Shown here: positions 1 to 58,670 of the stretch, one piece after another | Layout: every line of letters begins with the position of its first letter | How positions within the stretch are numbered: the first letter of the stretch is position 1 | Notes under the pieces: model-generated | Told to the model about the DNA's origin: nothing | Database searches by the model: none | What the model saw: the letters and a program-made list of their open reading frames with translations, nothing else | NCBI RefSeq assembly: GCF_001263335.1 | Contig: NZ_LGVW01000028.1 | Coordinates: 160,001 to 224,000, forward strand | Origin: Dichelobacter nodosus | GTDB taxonomy: Bacteria > Pseudomonadota > Gammaproteobacteria > Cardiobacteriales > Cardiobacteriaceae | Reading direction: 5' to 3' | DNA length: 64,000 nt | Made by a program: the position numbers and the translations under genes

Positions 1-657
1 GCTCAGGATCGTTACGGCATCAGCTGGCATAATCGCCCGCGGTGGCTGCTCAATCATCGCTTTCCCATTATTCACCCTGAACAAGATAATAACCGCCATC
101 AAACGCAATTATTAGCAGATTTTACCGCTCACTTTGCATTGCACGATGGCATTTCTTTTGAAACCTTTTTTCCGCAACAAACTGGTAACGGCATTGTGCT
201 TATTTGTGGTTCAGAAAATTATCCCGCGAAACGTTGGTCGGTTGAACATTGGCGTACTTTGTTGGATTTTTTACTTCTTCATACGCATGAAAACATTATT
301 TTCTGCGGAACGAAAAATGATATTGCGCTGATTCAGGAAATCACGGCGCCCTTTAATGCCGTGCGTATTCAAAACCTTGCCGGAAAAACAACTCTGTCAG
401 AATTTGCCCACATTTTACGGCAAGCGCGTTTAGTAGTCGGCAATGATACGGGCGGATTGCATCTTGCTAATGCGCTTGCCGTGCCAACCATTGGTTTATA
501 TGGTCCGACAAATCCGCAACGCACCGCGCCCATTTATCAAGCACCGCTCATCATTTTGCAGCCGCCTGATTGCCCACCCACTGGCGGTAAAGATATGGCT
601 TTGCTAGAAGCAGAACGCGTTATTTCGGCGGTAAAAAAATTATTAATGACAAAATAG
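1..657 (+). CDS. Glycosyltransferase family 9 (heptosyltransferase-like), 5' end cut by window edge
   Basis: The reading frame is open from base 1, so the true start lies outside the window; 218 codons remain of a family that is usually about 330-350 residues. The visible C-terminal half has the family 9 signature around codons 147-172 (GNDTGGLHLANALAVP, then GLYGPTNP), the nucleotide-sugar binding part of ADP-heptose:LPS heptosyltransferases, and a KRWSVEHW segment typical of the same family. The likely role is transfer of heptose or a similar sugar to the lipopolysaccharide core at the cytoplasmic face of the inner membrane. Which enzyme (WaaC, WaaF or another core transferase) cannot be decided from half a protein. 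znuA starts 39 bases after the stop, and its operator sits directly behind this gene. Confidence 0.85.
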   Translation, partial: AQDRYGISWHNRPRWLLNHRFPIIHPEQDNNRHQTQLLADFTAHFALHDGISFETFFPQQTGNGIVLICGSENYPAKRWSVEHWRTLLDFLLLHTHENIIFCGTKNDIALIQEITAPFNAVRIQNLAGKTTLSEFAHILRQARLVVGNDTGGLHLANALAVPTIGLYGPTNPQRTAPIYQAPLIILQPPDCPPTGGKDMALLEAERVISAVKKLLMTK

Positions 658-1746: not shown

Positions 1747-2202
1747 TTACCGTCCCCAACAACGAGTAGAAATCGCATCCCTTGCCCCTTTACCGTTTGC
1801 TTGTTTCACATTGCGGTGATCCAAAGTAAATTCTTTACATTCATCGGAAGCTTGACTGCCAAATGCTGTAGCTTTCACGGTAAACTTATCTTCCTCAATT
1901 TCAGAAAGAGTAATGTCATAGCGCTTCGTACCAGTAGCAGGAGAAACGTCTAATCCCCACTTATTCAATAGAGCATTATCAATGGGATCGCCATTACTCA
2001 TTTGGTTATACTTATGGGAAATACTATAATTTTGCTCCAACTTTTGCGCAACGCTCATCAGAACATTTCGCGCATCAACACGATAGCCGCGCAAAACGTA
2101 ACGCTGATAATTTGGAATAGCAATCGCTGCCAAAATACCTATGATTGCTACAACAACCATCATTTCTACTAAAGTAAATCCCTTTTGCTTGGGAGAAATC
2201 AT
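1747..2202 (-). CDS. pilE: Type IV minor pilin PilE
   Basis: A 151-residue class IVa prepilin. The short leader MISPKQKG is followed by the [22 protein letters not shown] hydrophobic spine with Glu at mature position 5; PilD would cut after the Gly and methylate the Phe. The C-terminal part carries a Cys pair (DECKEF and STRCWG) like the pilin D-region loop. The [19 protein letters not shown] segment is typical of the minor pilins found beside pilY1 rather than of the major subunit. It is the last gene of the pilY1-pilV-pilW-pilX-fimT-pilE run and has a good ribosome site (AAGGAG). It probably takes part in the pilus priming or tip complex. Confidence 0.88.
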
Positions 2203-2216
2203 TTTGAACTCCTTCT

Positions 2217-2696
2217 TTACTGAATTCGACCAGCGCGACTAATACTAAGTTTAAGTTCTAAACCTTTAACCGTTTTGTGCGTTATTGTCAAATTTCCCCC
2301 CACAAAATTAAGAGGAGGGCGTCCATTGTTAAGAAAAATTAAATCTACACCATTTCCAACACCTAAATTAACAACAACATTCTCGTGAATCGGCGGATAA
2401 TCACGAATGACTTTTTTCTCATTAACATCAAATACAATCCAACCTTGAGAGTAGTCATTAGCATTATCACATGACTCCCCATTCTTACTCGCGCATAGTT
2501 GAACAGGACGTTTTAAACGAATTGCTTCTTTTTGTGCCAGATAGAAAGCGCTTCGCCATTCGCCGGCAACCGCGCGCATTTGATTTGTAACCATCACTCG
2601 CTTTAGGCTTGGTGCAGCAAATGCCATCATGACTCCGAGAATAGCAACGACAACGGTCACTTCAAGGAGCGTAAAGCCCTTCATTTTTTGTGTCAT
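2217..2696 (-). CDS. fimT: Minor pilin of the FimT/FimU (GspH) type
   Basis: A prepilin-like protein of 159 residues. I start it at the ATG at 2696 because GGAAGGAA lies just upstream, between it and an in-frame ATG at 2714 that would precede the ribosome site. The cleavage motif is [23 protein letters not shown] with Glu5. The following segment ([29 protein letters not shown]) is the GspH/FimT signature. FimU-type pilins join PilV, PilW and PilX to form the complex that initiates and tops the type IV pilus. Its start lies just past the pilX stop, so the two are probably translationally coupled. Confidence 0.88.
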
Positions 2697-2697
2697 T

Positions 2698-3363
2698 TTA
2701 TTCCTTCCCTTCATCAGACTTGATGGGCACTTCTTCTTGCTTTAATAAAACGTAAGTATTTTGTTTTATTACGTTTACGGCACTATTCGTATCATCGCTA
2801 AGACCAACAGCCGTTACCCGCATCAACATTTTTGTTTCAATAACATTGGTTTGGAGTTTTTCATTAACGCCAACATTCTTAGGTTCTGCTTTAATCCGTT
2901 CAATTAAATATCTGATTTTTTTATCATTTTCATAACAAGCGGGTTGGTTTGCCAATGCTTGACAATCGCCTGTCCATTTAAAAAATGGACAATCTTGTAC
3001 TGGTGAATTGTCGCAATTTCCTTTGTAATCAAAGGTACTGGCATCAACTACACCAGGAAGATTACTAACCTTACCATCATCTAGCCAAAAATCGACTATC
3101 TCGGTTGAAAGCACATAATCGATACCGTTGTTATCAGATGGTTTCTTTTCCAGATGATCTTCATCTATGATGTAGAGCTCTGCCGCCCGAAGCGCCACAG
3201 ACGCTGCTTGAGATGCTTTCAATTGTTCGTAATCGGCACCAACTTTCTTCTCTTGCACACTAGCGCTTCCGAGTACAAACCGCAACAAAGTTAAGATTAC
3301 TATCAAAAAGACCAAACAGGTCAGCAAAACGACCCCTTTTTCTTTGCGATAAATATAGCTCAT
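2698..3363 (-). CDS. pilX: Minor pilin PilX
   Basis: 221 residues. The N-terminus MSYIYRKEKG/VVLLTCLVFLIVILTLL fits the PilX N-terminal domain: a prepilin leader ending in Gly, then a hydrophobic helix that lacks the Glu5 of ordinary pilins, as is common in PilX/GspK-like subunits. A conserved helix follows (QEKKVGADYEQLKASQAASVALRAAE). The C-terminal globular part has several Cys residues (CDN, CPFF, CQAL, ACYE). It overlaps pilW by four bases (ATGA), showing tight operon coupling. PilX-type subunits work with PilY1 at the pilus tip and affect adhesion and aggregation. Confidence 0.85.
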   Translation of the reverse strand: MSYIYRKEKGVVLLTCLVFLIVILTLLRFVLGSASVQEKKVGADYEQLKASQAASVALRAAELYIIDEDHLEKKPSDNNGIDYVLSTEIVDFWLDDGKVSNLPGVVDASTFDYKGNCDNSPVQDCPFFKWTGDCQALANQPACYENDKKIRYLIERIKAEPKNVGVNEKLQTNVIETKMLMRVTAVGLSDDTNSAVNVIKQNTYVLLKQEEVPIKSDEGKE

Positions 3364-4505
3364 AGTCCACCTCCCAGAGGGAAATAAATCAGATTAGGAA
3401 CCGCAAAAGTTCTAACGTAACGGCGATATAGGCGTGTATCATTTTTAGGACGGTTATTATCCTCATTAAAATTGCCTTTACTATCTCGTACACAAGTAGG
3501 AATTTTGGGTTGTAATTCAGCTATATCTTGCGTTTTCTGGCTTTTCAGCGGTTCACCAGCCACAACAATACAAGCTTCCACACCAATTACTTTTGCCCAT
3601 TCGCCTCCAACGTCTTCAGCTTTCACGATTTTGTCGGTATATAAACCTGATTGAGAGGAATAAACGTTAATATTGCTTCCGCCATCTTCGGTAGTCTCTG
3701 TTCCTCCGTCTCCTCCAGCCGAAGGGGTATAACCGGTTAGAGCGTATCGAAATTTCAATTCGGTTACGTTATCTACAATCGGCTCTGCATTACCTGCTTT
3801 ATCATTATTTTTACCATTACCTTCACAATAAAAAGCACCATCTTGTAAAAAATATTTATTTTCTACAAGCTTTCCTTCTGGTTTTTGCCCTAAACAATCT
3901 CTACCAAAACCACTCTCTTTAAGGCGAGCCTTTTCCTCTAAATCACCTTTCTCATAAAGACCAGAAGGAATGTTTTTATTTCTATCAAAGGTCACTGAAT
4001 TTTCACTTGATGCAAACTGATAACGAATCACCAAAGATTCTCTGGAATTTTCTTTAAGTTCTTCTACCGCCTCTTTACCAAAAGTAATAAAAAACGGGGT
4101 TTTAACTTTTATATCAGCACTTCCCGATTTCCAACCTTCTACTCTGGCATAAGCAGCTTGAATATCTTGTCTATTAATATTACCAATAATATTGTAGTGC
4201 TTTCTTGATTCCTTATTCTCATCTGACCCCTTAATTTGTTTAAAAGTAATAGGTTCAATAATATTTTCGGAAACATCAAAAAGCTCAACGTAGCCAGCCA
4301 TATTTAAATCCTGCTGCAAACGTTCAAAAATTTGCCGCGCCGATTCATCTAAAGCCTCATTTAAGCTTCGATCCTTATCCATCTTATTTGCCGTTACATA
4401 GATAGAAGCTAAAGAAAGCAGCAAAATAAGACCAATTGTTAGGGCAACCATCATTTCCATTAAACTGATACCCTTTTGAAATTTATGAGTTGATTGATAA
4501 TTCAT
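3360..4505 (-). CDS. pilW: Minor pilin PilW
   Basis: 381 residues. The prepilin cleavage region is KFQKG/ISLMEMMVALTIGLILLLSLAS with Glu5, followed by the helix ANKMDKDRSLNEALDESARQIFERLQQDLNMAGY, which is diagnostic of PilW (GspJ-like). The C-terminal globular region is long and includes a Gly/Thr-rich linker around residues 263-277. The start has AAGGAT upstream. It overlaps pilX by four bases and begins 9 bases after pilV ends. The expected role is in the minor-pilin complex that primes pilus assembly and anchors PilY1. Confidence 0.87.
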   Translation of the reverse strand: MNYQSTHKFQKGISLMEMMVALTIGLILLLSLASIYVTANKMDKDRSLNEALDESARQIFERLQQDLNMAGYVELFDVSENIIEPITFKQIKGSDENKESRKHYNIIGNINRQDIQAAYARVEGWKSGSADIKVKTPFFITFGKEAVEELKENSRESLVIRYQFASSENSVTFDRNKNIPSGLYEKGDLEEKARLKESGFGRDCLGQKPEGKLVENKYFLQDGAFYCEGNGKNNDKAGNAEPIVDNVTELKFRYALTGYTPSAGGDGGTETTEDGGSNINVYSSQSGLYTDKIVKAEDVGGEWAKVIGVEACIVVAGEPLKSQKTQDIAELQPKIPTCVRDSKGNFNEDNNRPKNDTRLYRRYVRTFAVPNLIYFPLGGGL

Positions 4506-4514
4506 GATAAATCC

Positions 4515-5084
4515 TTAAAGAGTAAAATCTACGCTAACTTGATCGGTTTTATTACTGGTTGCACTTCCTTCCGCACGTTGGTCTGCTTCAAAAATACGCC
4601 ACATAATCGTAACCGTATAAATACCCGTCTTATCCTCATCGCGAGTCACAGCAGCTTGACCATTGGGCACAACAGCTTGCACACGTTGCAACCAATTAGT
4701 CATTTCCGTATATGCTTGTTTTACAGCATTTTTTCCTGCTTTATTTCTTAATTCGCAAGCTTCTTTGTCAACATCTTTATCTTTAAATTTCTCGCCACTG
4801 CATGTATCTGTTTTAAATTCTGCCGTCCCAATATTAATTGAGTAGCCATTTTCTTGATATTTCGCTATACCAAAAATATAACCATCGATACCCAAAGCAT
4901 TCGCTTGTACCATCTCAATGAGCGACTGCATTTCATGCATAGCGCGTGCACGATATTCAGCAGAATATCCATAGCGGTTACTCACCTGCAACATCATTGT
5001 TGTCGTCACTAAACCGACGGCGACAATCAACATTGAAACGAGCACTTCCAGTAGCGTCATTCCCCGTTGTTTTTTTATTAACAT
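4515..5084 (-). CDS. pilV: Minor pilin PilV
   Basis: 189 residues from the ATG at 5084, which has AGAGGAAA upstream; the longer frame to 5144 would run through a strong hairpin and lacks a ribosome site. The leader MLIKKQRG is cleaved before MTLLEVLVSMLIVAVGLV (Glu5). The following RYGYSAEYRARAMHEMQSLIEMVQAN helix is typical of PilV (GspI-like). It begins 63 bases after the pilY1 stop, separated from it by an 11-base-pair hairpin that may set the ratio of the large PilY1 to the small pilins. Confidence 0.87.
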   Translation of the reverse strand: MLIKKQRGMTLLEVLVSMLIVAVGLVTTTMMLQVSNRYGYSAEYRARAMHEMQSLIEMVQANALGIDGYIFGIAKYQENGYSINIGTAEFKTDTCSGEKFKDKDVDKEACELRNKAGKNAVKQAYTEMTNWLQRVQAVVPNGQAAVTRDEDKTGIYTVTIMWRIFEADQRAEGSATSNKTDQVSVDFTL

Positions 5085-5112
5085 AACTTTTCCTCTTCGT
5101 CTAAGAGCAGAG

Positions 5113-5138
5113 AGAGCATGGTGATTCCACCATGCTCT
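5113..5138 (-). promoter_or_regulatory. Intercistronic hairpin between pilY1 and pilV
   Basis: A perfect 11-base-pair stem (AGAGCATGGTG / CACCATGCTCT) with a four-base loop, lying between the pilY1 stop and the pilV ribosome site. It has no T-run on the minus strand, so it is more likely an mRNA-stabilising or partial-termination element than a full terminator. Confidence 0.6.
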
Positions 5139-5147
5139 AAACACACA

Positions 5148-8100
5148 TTACTTCAAAACAGATTCTTTGATTTCGCGAGTATTGATACGAATCAACCGCG
5201 CACTTTCTGGGCAAATTTTGAAATCGACGCCAATTTCATCATAGCCCTTACCGGTAGAAGAATGACTCAAAATCTTGTCAGCTTCTTTTCGAGAAATACA
5301 ATAAGATTTTGTCTTATCTACTCCAGGAGCCTCATCCTGTCCAGATTGAGCCGCGCCATGTTGTGTCACCGATTTAGGTTCATCTAACGAAGAAAGAACT
5401 ACGCCAGAAGTTAATCCATCTTCCTTGTAACCAGCAGCTTCTTGTTGCTCACTACCACCACCGTTGCCACCACCAGTATTTCCATTATTATCTATTGGTT
5501 TTGTTCTTGGCGGCAGATTTTTAAATCGAGCACTATCTTTTTTCGGGTTACTACCAGTTAACACGTCAACACCGTATATCCAGCTTTCACCTTTTGCTTC
5601 AGCCTTTGTTTCACTGGTTTTACAAGAATAGGAACTTGATTGATCAGGCTTGCTTCCGCTTGATGTTTCTGAAGAGTCATAAATTCGTGAAGAGAAGAAA
5701 GCGGTTGAGTTTAAAATTGAAGCCTGCGTTACAACGCGCTCACCATTTTCTTCATTGAGCAACAATTGCCAACCTTTTTTATCTTTAACAGGATTATCAG
5801 TTAAATAAGCTACTGTTTTACCATCAGCTTGCACAGTTGTCTCAACTTTTTGTTGCGCTAAATCATCGCTGGTAAGTACTTTGGGATCTTCATCATTTAC
5901 ATCATCAAAAATACCCATCATGACTTGGGGATCTTTCGACTTCAAATCTTCCTGATAAACGTCCGATCCAGTACCAACGACGATAACCAATTTATTATCT
6001 TGTCCATCGCGACCACGATAAATTGCCGGTTGTGCAGTAATTGGTTGCGATTTATTGCCTTGATAAATCTTGTGAACCGTCCACTCTGCAACGTTTTCTT
6101 TATTGAAAGTGAAACGATATAAGTTACCACCTTGGTCACCAGCATAAGCATGATCGAATAAGAAATCGCGGTCAGTATCCACAAGAACCGGTGTTGATAA
6201 ACCACCAACGCCATCTTTTACCGTCAATTTAGCAATCAAGTCCCCCGCGGCTTTACCAGTACGAGCAGGATTGCCTTTATTAAGATTTAATCCCAAAGCT
6301 TCATAAATATAAAGCGTGGGTCCATTATCAAGTTTCACTGGAGAATTGGCAACAGGCGCACCTTCACGACCATGGTAACCATTGGCAAGGAATAAATATT
6401 GACGAACCGGATCTTCATCACCAAATTTCGCTTTGCCGTTATCGTATTTAGTTGCTACTTGTCCAAATTGTGGCGTATTTACCGTATAAGCCAATAAGTT
6501 ATCAGCACCTTTTGCGGTTTCCCATAAAGGAACTGTTTTTGACCAATTTCCTTCGCCAGCATCTAAACCAATTGGTGCTTTGGTAACTCTATCAAAACCA
6601 GAAACACTCAAAACATAAGCACCGCGTCCGCCTTGTCCCATTGCGCCAGCAATATAAACACCAGATTTATCGCCTTTTTCAGCATCTTCAGAAGTGGCGC
6701 GCCATTGCATACCGCCGTTATTTAAGAATAAATGCGGTTGAGCATCGACCGGAGTTCCTTTTACGGTTTTACCGTAACCTTCTTCTGCGGTTGCCGCTAA
6801 AGCTTTAGCAACGGTATCTGAACCGTCAACGCTTTCCCGTTCCATCGCAGCTGGCAAATAGTTCAATGCCAATGTAAAAGGTTTTTCGCCTTCTTGAGCT
6901 TTAAAAATATAAACCATGCCGTCGTTGGCAGCGGTCATAACGTATTTTTGCGTGGAAAGAATCGGCGTTCCTAAGACGTCCGCCATCATGCGTTGAGGAT
7001 CGTCTGCTTTTTCAGCACGCACGCGATATTGCGCAACTTTTTTTGCCGCTGCCGCTAATTTAGCCGCTCCATCGCGAATAGCAGGATCAGAGATGTTGCT
7101 ACTACGTGTGTACCACGGTTTAAAATATTGCGCGAAATCATTTTCTTGTTCTTTACTAAAGCCATAAAAATCTGCTTTTGGCGCATCAGCAGCATCAATC
7201 AAGGTATTTTTCGTGCCGTCATTAACGATAATCTTCCGGCTCGAATAATCAGCACTAACGCGTTTCGGTTGTTCTACTCCGTCTTTATCTTTTTCTTTGA
7301 CGATATTGCCCTTCTTATCCAATTGAGTAAACTCTAACGTACTGCTCCAATTGGCTGTATTTAAAGTTAAAGCAATACCAAACCCGCCATCTTTAGATGG
7401 AGTAACGGCAGGAGAAGAAACAGAGTGACCTTCTGTGGGTTTTAAAGCAATCGCACCGTTATTATTAATGTCTTCTACGATCAATCCAAAAGCATGATCC
7501 AATTCTTTTTGACTTAACGCACTAAAGAAACCCACGGTATCATCTTTCTTATCGCCATCGGTATCCAACATTGAAGCGGCATTTTTTAAATACGCTTTAC
7601 CAATTGCGCTCAAACCAGAACCAAAGCCGATGGTATAAGTTTTAATGGTTTGTGGCGGGAAGCTGGCATCGTCCCAATCGAGACCTTCTTTATCTTTATC
7701 ACCATAAAAAATACCTTCATTTTTCGGACTTTTAACGTCTTTACTGGCTAAACGTTTCGAAAAAAAGGCAATTCCATGATCTTCTTCATAAACGTTTGGA
7801 TCATCGTAGAGACAGATAAATTGACTTTGCGCTATCAGGTTATGCAAACCACTAGAGGGATATATTAACTTAAAGCCATTAGGGCATTGTTGCCCCCGCG
7901 CCTTCCACTGCGGCCAAGTATATGGAATGTATTTGTATTCATCTTTGATGGGGCGATATCCATCAGCTGAATAATTAGCCGGTAACGCGCCAAAGAAAGA
8001 AGGCACTGCTTTATCCGTCCCACCTGTTGCCTGCAAAAATCTTCCTTTTCTGTTTCGGTACCAGCTATACCCAACAACTTCACGAATAGTACTAGGTTTA

Positions 8101-8966
8101 TTTGAGTTTCTCAGGAAATAATTGTCCGCATTAATAGGCTCGTCTAAGAAAGAGTCTCCATCAGAAAGCACGATAATATAGTTCTTTTGACAAACGTGCT
8201 CCATATTCTTCACAACGTGCGTAAAAGCATCCATATAACGTGAAGTTGAAGGCGTACCACCTGACGGAGATAAAATAGACATTTGATTATTGATAATACT
8301 GTAGCTGTCTAACGTATACGGTGAAGGTTTTTGAGTTGTTTTGTTGTTAAGACTGATGAAACTCCAATAAAATTTATCTTTATAATCTTTATTTCGTAAA
8401 ATTTTAACAAGCGCATTTCGCGCAATATCAAATTTTGATGCTTCATTGCCAGGAATTGCCGGAGTAGGAATCAACATTAAGTTCTGATGACCATTGGAGC
8501 AAGAAACACTATTAGCTGAAGACATGGTCGGTTTTGTACCATCCATACAAAAATAGCAATTACTACCAACAGCGAGCTGCTCATCAGACGGTATTATTAA
8601 TGGCAAACCAAGCTGATTACGCTTATTTACAAAATTCATGTAACCATTAGAAGAGACAGGCCAAGAATAAGAGGGGCAATACAAACTAGAAGAATTGCCC
8701 CCAAACACCATTGGAGAATCAGCCATTGAACCAGAGTCGTCGATCATCAGCATAATTTTTGCTGGAAAACCATTCCCGCCGCTACTTTCACTGAAGTTTT
8801 GCAAGTTTAAAGACAAATAAGCAAAAGGCGAAAAGGGAATGCCCGCTTTATCTTTTTTCGCGTCCGCCGCATAACCTTGCGTGCAAACGGCAATCACTGC
8901 CAAAGCCAAAGGCAACCGTCCAAATGCCACGGTCGTTCCATCTTTTTTATGTTTCAAATTACGCAT
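5148..8966 (-). CDS. pilY1: PilY1, type IV pilus tip adhesin and biogenesis factor
   Basis: 1272 residues from the ATG at 8966, chosen for its TTTGGAGG ribosome site and because a signal peptide follows (ending near QGYAADA). The N-terminal part contains a von Willebrand A-like domain with the MIDAS start LMIDDSGSM at about residues 70-80. The C-terminal half is the PilY1 beta-propeller domain, with an EF-hand-like calcium loop (DTDRDFLFD) near residue 928, where PilY1 proteins bind calcium to control pilus extension and retraction. A long low-complexity Gly/Asn/Ser stretch lies near residues 1160-1170. PilY1 is first in this operon, upstream of its pilin partners; in Pseudomonas it follows them. 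A sigma-54 promoter and structured leader precede it. Confidence 0.92.
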   Translation of the reverse strand: MRNLKHKKDGTTVAFGRLPLALAVIAVCTQGYAADAKKDKAGIPFSPFAYLSLNLQNFSESSGGNGFPAKIMLMIDDSGSMADSPMVFGGNSSSLYCPSYSWPVSSNGYMNFVNKRNQLGLPLIIPSDEQLAVGSNCYFCMDGTKPTMSSANSVSCSNGHQNLMLIPTPAIPGNEASKFDIARNALVKILRNKDYKDKFYWSFISLNNKTTQKPSPYTLDSYSIINNQMSILSPSGGTPSTSRYMDAFTHVVKNMEHVCQKNYIIVLSDGDSFLDEPINADNYFLRNSNKPSTIREVVGYSWYRNRKGRFLQATGGTDKAVPSFFGALPANYSADGYRPIKDEYKYIPYTWPQWKARGQQCPNGFKLIYPSSGLHNLIAQSQFICLYDDPNVYEEDHGIAFFSKRLASKDVKSPKNEGIFYGDKDKEGLDWDDASFPPQTIKTYTIGFGSGLSAIGKAYLKNAASMLDTDGDKKDDTVGFFSALSQKELDHAFGLIVEDINNNGAIALKPTEGHSVSSPAVTPSKDGGFGIALTLNTANWSSTLEFTQLDKKGNIVKEKDKDGVEQPKRVSADYSSRKIIVNDGTKNTLIDAADAPKADFYGFSKEQENDFAQYFKPWYTRSSNISDPAIRDGAAKLAAAAKKVAQYRVRAEKADDPQRMMADVLGTPILSTQKYVMTAANDGMVYIFKAQEGEKPFTLALNYLPAAMERESVDGSDTVAKALAATAEEGYGKTVKGTPVDAQPHLFLNNGGMQWRATSEDAEKGDKSGVYIAGAMGQGGRGAYVLSVSGFDRVTKAPIGLDAGEGNWSKTVPLWETAKGADNLLAYTVNTPQFGQVATKYDNGKAKFGDEDPVRQYLFLANGYHGREGAPVANSPVKLDNGPTLYIYEALGLNLNKGNPARTGKAAGDLIAKLTVKDGVGGLSTPVLVDTDRDFLFDHAYAGDQGGNLYRFTFNKENVAEWTVHKIYQGNKSQPITAQPAIYRGRDGQDNKLVIVVGTGSDVYQEDLKSKDPQVMMGIFDDVNDEDPKVLTSDDLAQQKVETTVQADGKTVAYLTDNPVKDKKGWQLLLNEENGERVVTQASILNSTAFFSSRIYDSSETSSGSKPDQSSSYSCKTSETKAEAKGESWIYGVDVLTGSNPKKDSARFKNLPPRTKPIDNNGNTGGGNGGGSEQQEAAGYKEDGLTSGVVLSSLDEPKSVTQHGAAQSGQDEAPGVDKTKSYCISRKEADKILSHSSTGKGYDEIGVDFKICPESARLIRINTREIKESVLK

Positions 8967-8980
8967 AATTCCTCCAAAGC

Positions 8981-9016
8981 ACTGCTCGCGCAGTAAAACC
9001 CAACTCAAAGATTGGG
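8981..9016 (-). promoter_or_regulatory. Two small hairpins in the pilY1 5' leader
   Basis: On the minus strand, CCCAA (9016-9012), an eight-base loop, TTGGG and then TTTT form a weak terminator-like element. ACTGC, GCGA, GCAGT (8994-8981) follows. The second stem ends a few bases before the GGAGG ribosome site. They could attenuate transcription or gate translation; function is inferred only. Confidence 0.4.
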
Positions 9017-9036
9017 ACTAAACAAGTGAAATTTAT

Positions 9037-9051
9037 TGACAGAACCTGTCA
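9037..9051. promoter_or_regulatory. Palindrome at the predicted pilY1 transcription start
   Basis: TGACAG-AAC-CTGTCA is a perfect 6+6 inverted repeat. It begins two or three bases after the start predicted from the sigma-54 element, so it may be an operator or a 5' stem-loop that stabilises the mRNA. Confidence 0.45.
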
Positions 9052-9063
9052 GATCTTTACGCA

Positions 9064-9079
9064 TGCAAATTTTATGCCA
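9064..9079 (-). promoter_or_regulatory. Sigma-54 (RpoN) promoter for pilY1 operon
   Basis: The minus strand reads TGGCATAAAATTTGCA: a -24 GG and a -12 GC separated by exactly ten bases, with TGGCA and TTGCA arms. This is a near-consensus sigma-54 element. The predicted start is near 9053, about 87 bases before the pilY1 ATG. Type IV pilin genes are known RpoN/PilR targets in several gammaproteobacteria; no PilR site was recognised. Confidence 0.65.
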
Positions 9080-9143
9080 TAAAAATGTATTTTTATTAAT
9101 AATCCGTTCACTAATGTTCATTAAAAATAAAAAAAAACAATTT

Positions 9144-9746
9144 TTACCGCCAGCGCGCAGAAAAAAGTTCTGCCCACTTTTTATGCACGGAATCCACATC
9201 AATTTCTGGCACAAATTCAGATAATTGCGCCATTTTCATTCCCGATAAACCGCAAGGATTAATACCCAAAAAAGGCGACAAATCCATTGCCACATTAATG
9301 GCAATACCGTGATAACTACAACCACGACTCACCTTAAATCCTAAAGAAGCAATTTTGCGTCCATCTGCCACATAAACGCCCGGCGCATCAGCGCGCGCGT
9401 GCGCAGCAACCGCATAATCCTGCAAAAGCGCGATCGTTGTTTCTTCAACCAGCGACACAAACCGCCGAATGCCGATATTCGCCGCCTTCAAACTCAATAA
9501 CGGATAAATCACCGCCTGCCCAAGTCCGTGATAAGTAATTTGTCCGCCGCGGTCAATTTGAATTACGGGAATATTGCCGGTATTTAAAATATGCTCCGCT
9601 TTGCCCGCCTGCCCTTGCGTGTAAACGGGATAATGTTCTACCAACCATAATTGGTCATCTTCGGCGCCGCCGCGTTGCCGCGTAAAATCCTGCATCTTTT
9701 GCCAAACAGAAACATAATCCTGCCGCCCTAATTGTTGAATCAACAT
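9144..9746 (-). CDS. lipB: Octanoyl-[acyl carrier protein]:protein N-octanoyltransferase LipB
   Basis: LipB moves the octanoyl group from acyl carrier protein to lipoyl domains of 2-oxoacid dehydrogenases and the glycine cleavage H protein, the first step of lipoate synthesis. The 200 residues show the family motifs: RGGQITYHGLGQ (about 66-77), GRKIASLGFKVSRGCSYHG with the active-site Lys131, and INPCG with catalytic Cys165. The length is normal. It follows ybeD by one base in the dacA-ybeD-lipB order known from E. coli. lipA, which often comes next, is missing here; the pilus operon starts instead. Confidence 0.96.
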   Translation of the reverse strand: MLIQQLGRQDYVSVWQKMQDFTRQRGGAEDDQLWLVEHYPVYTQGQAGKAEHILNTGNIPVIQIDRGGQITYHGLGQAVIYPLLSLKAANIGIRRFVSLVEETTIALLQDYAVAAHARADAPGVYVADGRKIASLGFKVSRGCSYHGIAINVAMDLSPFLGINPCGLSGMKMAQLSEFVPEIDVDSVHKKWAELFSARWR

Positions 9747-58480: not shown

Positions 58481-58556
58481 TGGCTCCCCGAGACGGGCTC
58501 GAACCGCCGACCCAATGATTAACAGTCATTTGCTCTACCGACTGAGCTATCGGGGA
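58481..58556 (-). tRNA. tRNA-Asn (GTT), copy 2
   Basis: 76 bases with encoded CCA. The acceptor is TCCCCGA/TCGGGGA, the anticodon loop CTGTTAA (GTT), and the T loop TTCGAGC. It appears identical to the upstream copy at 58595-58670. Confidence 0.96.
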
Positions 58557-58594: not shown

Positions 58595-58670
58595 TGGCTC
58601 CCCGAGACGGGCTCGAACCGCCGACCCAATGATTAACAGTCATTTGCTCTACCGACTGAGCTATCGGGGA
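58595..58670 (-). tRNA. tRNA-Asn (GTT), copy 1
   Basis: 76 bases with encoded CCA, same sequence as copy 2, separated from it by 38 bases. Together they form a two-tRNA operon with its own promoter and terminator. Confidence 0.96.

Follow-up and report, generated by a model that had tools for sequence, protein, structure and literature searches.

Sigma-54 promoter of the pilY1–minor-pilin operon in Dichelobacter nodosus and related Cardiobacteriaceae, and a putative 5'-terminal stem-loop on pilus messages

Major pilin genes are controlled by RpoN and PilSR in Pseudomonas aeruginosa (pilA), in the sheep footrot bacterium Dichelobacter nodosus (fimA) and in Kingella kingae; the PilR regulon of D. 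nodosus was reportedly the subject of work by Parker in 2006. The minor-pilin operon of P. aeruginosa is controlled by AlgR/FimS, and 5'-end-dependent mRNA decay in Escherichia coli runs via RppH and RNase E. In commensal Neisseria, sigma-54 and the Nps-Npa two-component system drive pilE, and in Neisseria elongata pilus genes besides pilE, the tested pilC included, are not RpoN-controlled, according to the sections of the study on which this comparison draws (PMC6528607). Minor-pilin changes in a P. aeruginosa pilR mutant were judged indirect in the portion of text used here (PMC6058289), and the E. coli ompA and papA mRNAs are stabilized by 5'-terminal stem-loops, as cited in an excerpt of PMC3997798.

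The D. nodosus genome analyzed here (G000, 1.45 Mb), from which a stretch of 64,000 nucleotides (the window) was taken, has in common with RpoN/PilSR control of major pilins a -24/-12 promoter, one RpoN and a PilSR-like pair, and resembles commensal Neisseria in having sigma-54 and a two-component system on the major pilin; in contrast to the former systems, the tip and minor-pilin operon of the Cardiobacteriaceae also owns a sigma-54 promoter, which is conserved in the family. The minor-pilin genes of P. aeruginosa are homologous, but their control by AlgR/FimS and Vfr is not of the sigma-54 type. The fimA/pilA messages are like those of ompA and papA, abundant messages for a surface protein or a pilin, in carrying a stem-loop at the extreme 5' end; genes and lineage differ, the stem-loop is here linked to sigma-54 starts, and a stabilizing effect is proposed for it.

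The pilY1 operon and its promoter element

On the minus strand of the window, lipB is followed by pilY1-pilV-pilW-pilX-fimT/GspH-pilE, with the following features upstream of and within the operon:

9064..9079, minus strand: sigma-54 -24/-12 element TGGCATAAAATTTGCA, read from sequence, kept upstream of pilY1 in the family
9053, minus strand: predicted +1, placed 12 nt past the -12 C, give or take about 2 nt
9037..9051, minus strand: first hairpin TGACAG-GTT-CTGTCA, predicted to be 5'-terminal, starting at about +3, like the fimA/pilA hairpins
8999..9016, minus strand: second hairpin CCCAAT-CTTTGA-GTTGGG (last pair T-G), weakly terminator-like, followed by TTTT
8981..8994, minus strand: third hairpin ACTGC-GCGA-GCAGT with a GNRA-type loop, ending 5 nt ahead of the ribosome site
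8971..8975, minus strand: ribosome-binding site GGAGG
5148..8966, minus strand: pilY1, encoding the PilC/PilY1 tip adhesin and opening the operon, identified from profile matches
4515..5144, minus strand: pilV-like minor pilin
3360..4505, minus strand: pilW-like minor pilin
2698..3363, minus strand: pilX-like minor pilin, so named from its position (no Pfam matches)
2217..2714, minus strand: fimT/GspH-type minor pilin
1747..2202, minus strand: pilE-like minor pilin with a ComP_DUS domain

The pilY1 product scored above the cut-off of the Pfam model T4P_PilY1 and reached 230.5 bits with the NCBIfam model PilC, under the cut-off of 350. The ComP_DUS domain is a receptor for DNA uptake sequences; no obvious repeated uptake word of this kind occurs in the window. 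The FimA protein of the same genome matches the solved chain 3sok (1.9e-65), which we take to be the D. nodosus pilin. An Rfam search of the window yielded three tRNAs and nothing else; two tRNA genes of equal score stand in tandem on the minus strand at 58484-58556 and 58598-58670.

A preliminary description of this DNA had read TGGCA-N6-TTGCA with GG-N10-GC spacing as the pilY1 promoter. This element TGGCATAAAATTTGCA begins 113 nt upstream of pilY1 and is present at 9079-9064 on the minus strand; the proposed sigma-54 promoter is real and is conserved in the family. The motif by itself is not rare: the exact pattern TGGCAN6TTGCW has 18 copies on both strands of the 1.45-Mb genome (approximately 0.8 per 64 kb), two of them in the window. 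Sixteen of the 18 lie within long ORFs (one of these, L031, also 119 nt upstream of the next gene), one (L047) lies at a contig end just past a gene, and the pilY1 copy alone sits in a gap ahead of a gene. The near-consensus site at the contig end (L047/L093) lacks a start hairpin. When the 135 nt between -160 and -26 of pilY1 were shuffled 2000 times, the element's score was never equaled (p 0.0005). Among variant patterns, TGGCACN5TTGCA has no genomic sites; TGGCAYRN4TTGCW has three against two for the reversed pattern, and thus no excess from sequence alone; TGGCAYN7GCA has 38 against 21, as a bulk count.

As an alternative, the sigma-54-like site could be incidental, with pilY1 transcribed mainly by read-through from lipB/dacA or started at a sigma-70 promoter that went unseen. 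The gene lipB is encoded on the same strand 177 nt upstream, with no terminator-like site reported between the two on that strand, yet the element is kept ahead of pilY1 while the upstream gene changes between genera; a sigma-70 promoter for pilY1 was rejected after a crude consensus scan of the minus strand at 8900-9300 found no such site. Taken together, this alternative is regarded as improbable, and the sigma-54 promoter remains the preferred origin of the pilY1 transcript.

Conservation of the promoter and its likely activator

Ten Cardiobacteriaceae pilY1 genes were compared, one per genome, with start codons picked by eye from the ribosome site; in two genomes with many pilY1 paralogues (G001 and G007) the best-matching one was taken. 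These two genomes carry 23 and 24 PilY1 match rows over many different long ORFs, a large PilY1 expansion. The best GG-N10-GC site was scored between -160 and -26 from the start codon, with weights that follow the general sigma-54 consensus independently of the tested sequences (maximum 23). According to the ORFs, pilY1 heads the minor-pilin operon in seven family genomes (G000, G004, G011, G008, G003, G006, and G002). A GG-N10-GC element was found ahead of pilY1 in nine of the ten genomes, 59-113 nt from the start codon; five elements are near-consensus, with scores of 23 (G000), 22.5 (G011 and G008), 22 (G004) and 21 (G006), and four are weaker, with 20 (G002), 19.5 (G001), 19 (G003) and 17.5 (G007), those of G003, G001 and G007 being weak. 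Shuffle p values for the nine range from 0.0005 to 0.035 each, and the Fisher p value over all ten, G005 included, is 3.5e-12. The tenth genome, G005, has no such element upstream of pilY1 (L084, G005:C1:57000-70000), though pilV-pilE genes come after; its pilY1 is split into several frames, with stops within the matches. In G009, where the minor pilins precede pilY1, a site TGGCACATTTATTGCT with a score of 22.5 lies upstream of the first minor-pilin gene; in G010, pilY1 was not found. Conservation in relatives, which the preliminary description had named as a check, is therefore borne out for the -24/-12 element, at nine of ten pilY1 loci and at the G009 operon, and not for the start hairpin, since one scoring at least 5 at +1 to +4 occurs in three of nine leaders and other leaders have theirs elsewhere.

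Outside the family, a site above a threshold of 20.5 was found at one of 18 Neisseriaceae pilC loci (L149, at -183), in line with an RpoN-independent pilC; at the same threshold three of four Cardiobacteriaceae operon loci pass, Cardiobacterium hominis fails, and neither of two paralogue loci passes. A rough gene walk over 45 other loci gave three with a site of at least 21 ahead of the first gene, one of them again in the Neisseriaceae, at a background of 1.2% per stretch.

RpoN was found in all 12 family genomes, with a single gene in G000. Among five activator-domain matches in this genome, one belongs to a 528-aa response regulator with a GSFTGA (GAFTGA-type) loop that adjoins a sensor kinase; it matches no NCBIfam model at its cut-off and is taken here as PilR from its architecture and its kinase neighbor. 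A second regulator (L074 1072-2430) also adjoins a sensor kinase and is closest to the NtrX model, below cut-off; it lacks the sigma-54 contact loop, so that the PilR-like protein is the one likely activator for RpoN. The remaining three matches are weak and fall in two proteins, each of which has a pair of Walker A motifs, lacks the loop and looks ClpA/ClpB-like by eye. With a single activator of the GAFTGA type in the genome, control by PilR and RpoN is likely, and any sigma-54 promoter in G000 should need PilR; by eye, no PilR box was recognized upstream of pilY1. The earlier proposal that the tip-adhesin and minor-pilin operon is itself under RpoN gains support from the kept -24/-12 element, the RpoN gene and the PilSR-like pair.

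A predicted start hairpin on pilin transcripts

In the same genome, GTCAG-GCAA-CTGAC begins at +2 of the fimA promoter TGGCATTGATGACGCA, within the predicted transcript start CGTCAGGCAACTGAC downstream of fimA's own -24/-12 element. To the family set for this feature, each of 12 genomes contributed a single pilin gene whose GG-N10-GC site scores between 19 and 22.5; for comparison, PF00114 matched 149 of 275 class genomes, from which 90 loci were used, 73 with a usable site. A hairpin scoring at least 5 at +1 to +3 occurs at ten of the 12 family pilA promoters, which come from related genomes and are not independent, versus eight of the 73 class comparators (Fisher p 7.5e-7). The two exceptions have a hairpin with a mismatch (G011) and three pairs only (G001), and a second G010 pilin gene with a site has no start hairpin. 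The mismatched G011 hairpin and the AT-only one of G007 do not exceed shuffles in stability (z -0.7 each); folding z-scores of family pilA in the stretch -5..22 are -3.2 and -3.6.

The arms vary while their pairing is kept. Hairpins from ten genomes have eight distinct arm pairs and loops of 3-5 nt, and 49 of 50 cells in their outer five pairs are paired (shuffle mean 41.2; p 1.5e-4). In an alignment of nine pilA rows, which leaves out G005, G001, G007 and pilY1, 96.3% of cells are paired against 19.6-50% in slid controls, four of six pairs have two-sided changes, and covariation is 0.509 versus 0.263 when shuffled. As a predicted RNA structure, the pilA start hairpin is well supported. Cardiobacterium-type pilA leaders (L096, L095, and L094) have a second, CAGC/GCTG hairpin after the first, at about +25.

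These changes bear on the view that the palindrome at +3 of pilY1 is a DNA-binding site, for PilR or a repressor, instead of an RNA hairpin. The palindrome reads CTGTC on both strands and thereby resembles the P. aeruginosa PilR half-site, (C/G)TGTC, and the pilA arms of several genomes hold GACAG or CTGTC. However, pilA arm sequences change while pairing stays, the loop varies in length, the fimA arms in the same genome are GTCAG/CTGAC and hold no CTGTC, and the TGACAG/CTGTCA palindrome has one exact copy only in the window; a site right at +1 would also be unusual for an activator of the PilR type. A DNA site is considered unlikely, and the hairpin most likely acts in RNA.

In 71 class comparators the folding z-score at -2..25 is -1.0 (standard error 0.17-0.18), compared to -0.2 to -0.4 at 89 other sigma-54 sites and down to -0.77 at the 33 that are intergenic-like; the difference from these 33 has p 0.06 at -2..25 and 0.01 at 1..28. 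Within class pilA leaders, mean z rises from -0.94 at the start to -0.26 at +41 (paired p 0.003); of 71 leaders, 14 have z under -2 at the start and 9 at +41. Counted under looser rules (start -4 to +6, loop 3-9), hairpins occur in 22 of 71 class pilA leaders against a background of 26%, and for other sigma-54 sites the figures are 21 of 90 against 24%; with no class-wide excess in this count, the class-wide claim rests on the folding z-scores. Class pilA leaders from other lineages (L249, L254, L308, L323, and L289) have their own hairpins at the predicted start, some of them long-looped. In a limited literature search, no paper describing a 5' hairpin of pilA mRNA was found.

The pilY1 leader and the place of the tip operon in pilus control

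From the predicted +1 at 9053 to the ATG at 8966-8964, the pilY1 leader measures 87 nt; the preliminary description had counted 88, and its three hairpins and GGAGG are found as it described them. It is unusual for 87 nt to hold three separate perfect hairpins, which occurs in six of 5000 shuffles and, the leader itself counted, in 14 of 4408 overlapping stretches drawn from both strands of the window, while the whole-leader fold is ordinary (z -0.92 for the leader alone; z -0.05 with 27 extra bases). Hairpins two and three have no supported function. The suggestion that the leader might attenuate transcription fared poorly: although the second hairpin, with TTTT after it, had been flagged as terminator-like, it is a short stem of 6 pairs and -5.8 kcal/mol before a tract of four T (TTTTACTG), and by eye it has no clear counterpart in relatives' leaders, of which eight were inspected and only that of G004 has a short hairpin with TTTT, overlapping the ribosome site. 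As an attenuator the leader was rejected: a U-tract terminator combined with alternative pairing or a leader peptide was not found, and inspection by eye showed no ribosome site that would serve a leader peptide. Attenuation is accordingly rated very improbable.

Whether the first hairpin belongs with those of pilA can be approached with the model R1, built from the nine pilA rows without pilY1. Of the 20 window matches to R1, the pilY1 start ranks highest, at 17.2 bits (rough E 0.012), and the pilY1 arms GACAG/CTGTC equal the pilA consensus arms. A genome-wide R1 search, in which 150 of 374 first-look G000 candidates were scored, did not list pilY1 and did list a site antisense inside an ileS-like gene at 23.2 bits, so that 17 bits is unspecific genome-wide. 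In the 12 family genomes, 12 R1 loci beyond the known pilA promoters were inspected: two (L350 and L344) proved to be pilA promoters, five (L349, L352, L354, L361, and L366) have the site inside or overlapping long ORFs, one (L355) has a weak site only, and four (L346, L351, L353, and L356) have no GG-N10-GC near the center according to a script.

The pilY1 palindrome might instead be a chance hairpin, the pilA hairpin alone being real. A hairpin like it at +1 to +4 has a shuffle p of 0.026, and most relatives' pilY1 leaders lack one at that place: it scores at least 5 in three of nine (G000, G002, and G007) and 4 to 4.5 in G001 and G004, and is absent in four, where the main hairpin lies at +11 to +14 (G008, G006, and G011; leader z -3.2, -2.3 and -2.3, respectively) or a weak one at +6 (G003). 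As a pairing structure the start hairpin is not conserved across pilY1 orthologs. Yet its arms are the pilA consensus, it is the top window match of a model built from pilA only, and three hairpins together are rare. Chance is a serious contender with somewhat poorer prospects than an extension of the 5' hairpin from pilA to pilY1, which is likely; this extension is graded below the pilA hairpin itself, because pilY1 relatives keep the start hairpin partly, the G000 leader fold is ordinary, and pilY1 was unlisted genome-wide.

The explanation preferred here, and held to be probable, is that a PilR-activated sigma-54 promoter drives the pilY1–minor-pilin operon under control shared with fimA, and that the messages carry a 5' stem-loop of the ompA/papA type. 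PilR, whose binding is presumed, would activate this promoter as it does that of fimA; under the same control, tip complex and fiber subunit would be made together. The transcript would begin at about 9053, with the first hairpin as its 5'-terminal stem-loop, in the same place as in family fimA/pilA messages. The stem-loop lies no more than about 3 nt from the predicted 5' end, as in the ompA/papA type, and the 1-3 or so unpaired nucleotides ahead of the stem may hinder 5'-end-dependent decay through RppH and RNase E; a stabilizing role is suggested by this analogy.

More tentatively, RpoN-driven pilin transcripts of Gammaproteobacteria may tend to open with a 5' stem-loop, most strongly in Cardiobacteriaceae, and the D. 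nodosus tip operon may have gained promoter and hairpin as a module governing how much of a pilus message is made and how long it lasts; the odds are judged to be against this wider proposal. If the start hairpin is real class-wide, it would allow more confident prediction of pilA start sites and would add mRNA stability to the means of pilus control. For the family, the preferred explanation, if true, would place the pilus-tip operon within the RpoN/PilR circuit throughout the Cardiobacteriaceae, unlike in Neisseria, and would offer a testable reason for possibly long-lived pilin messages.
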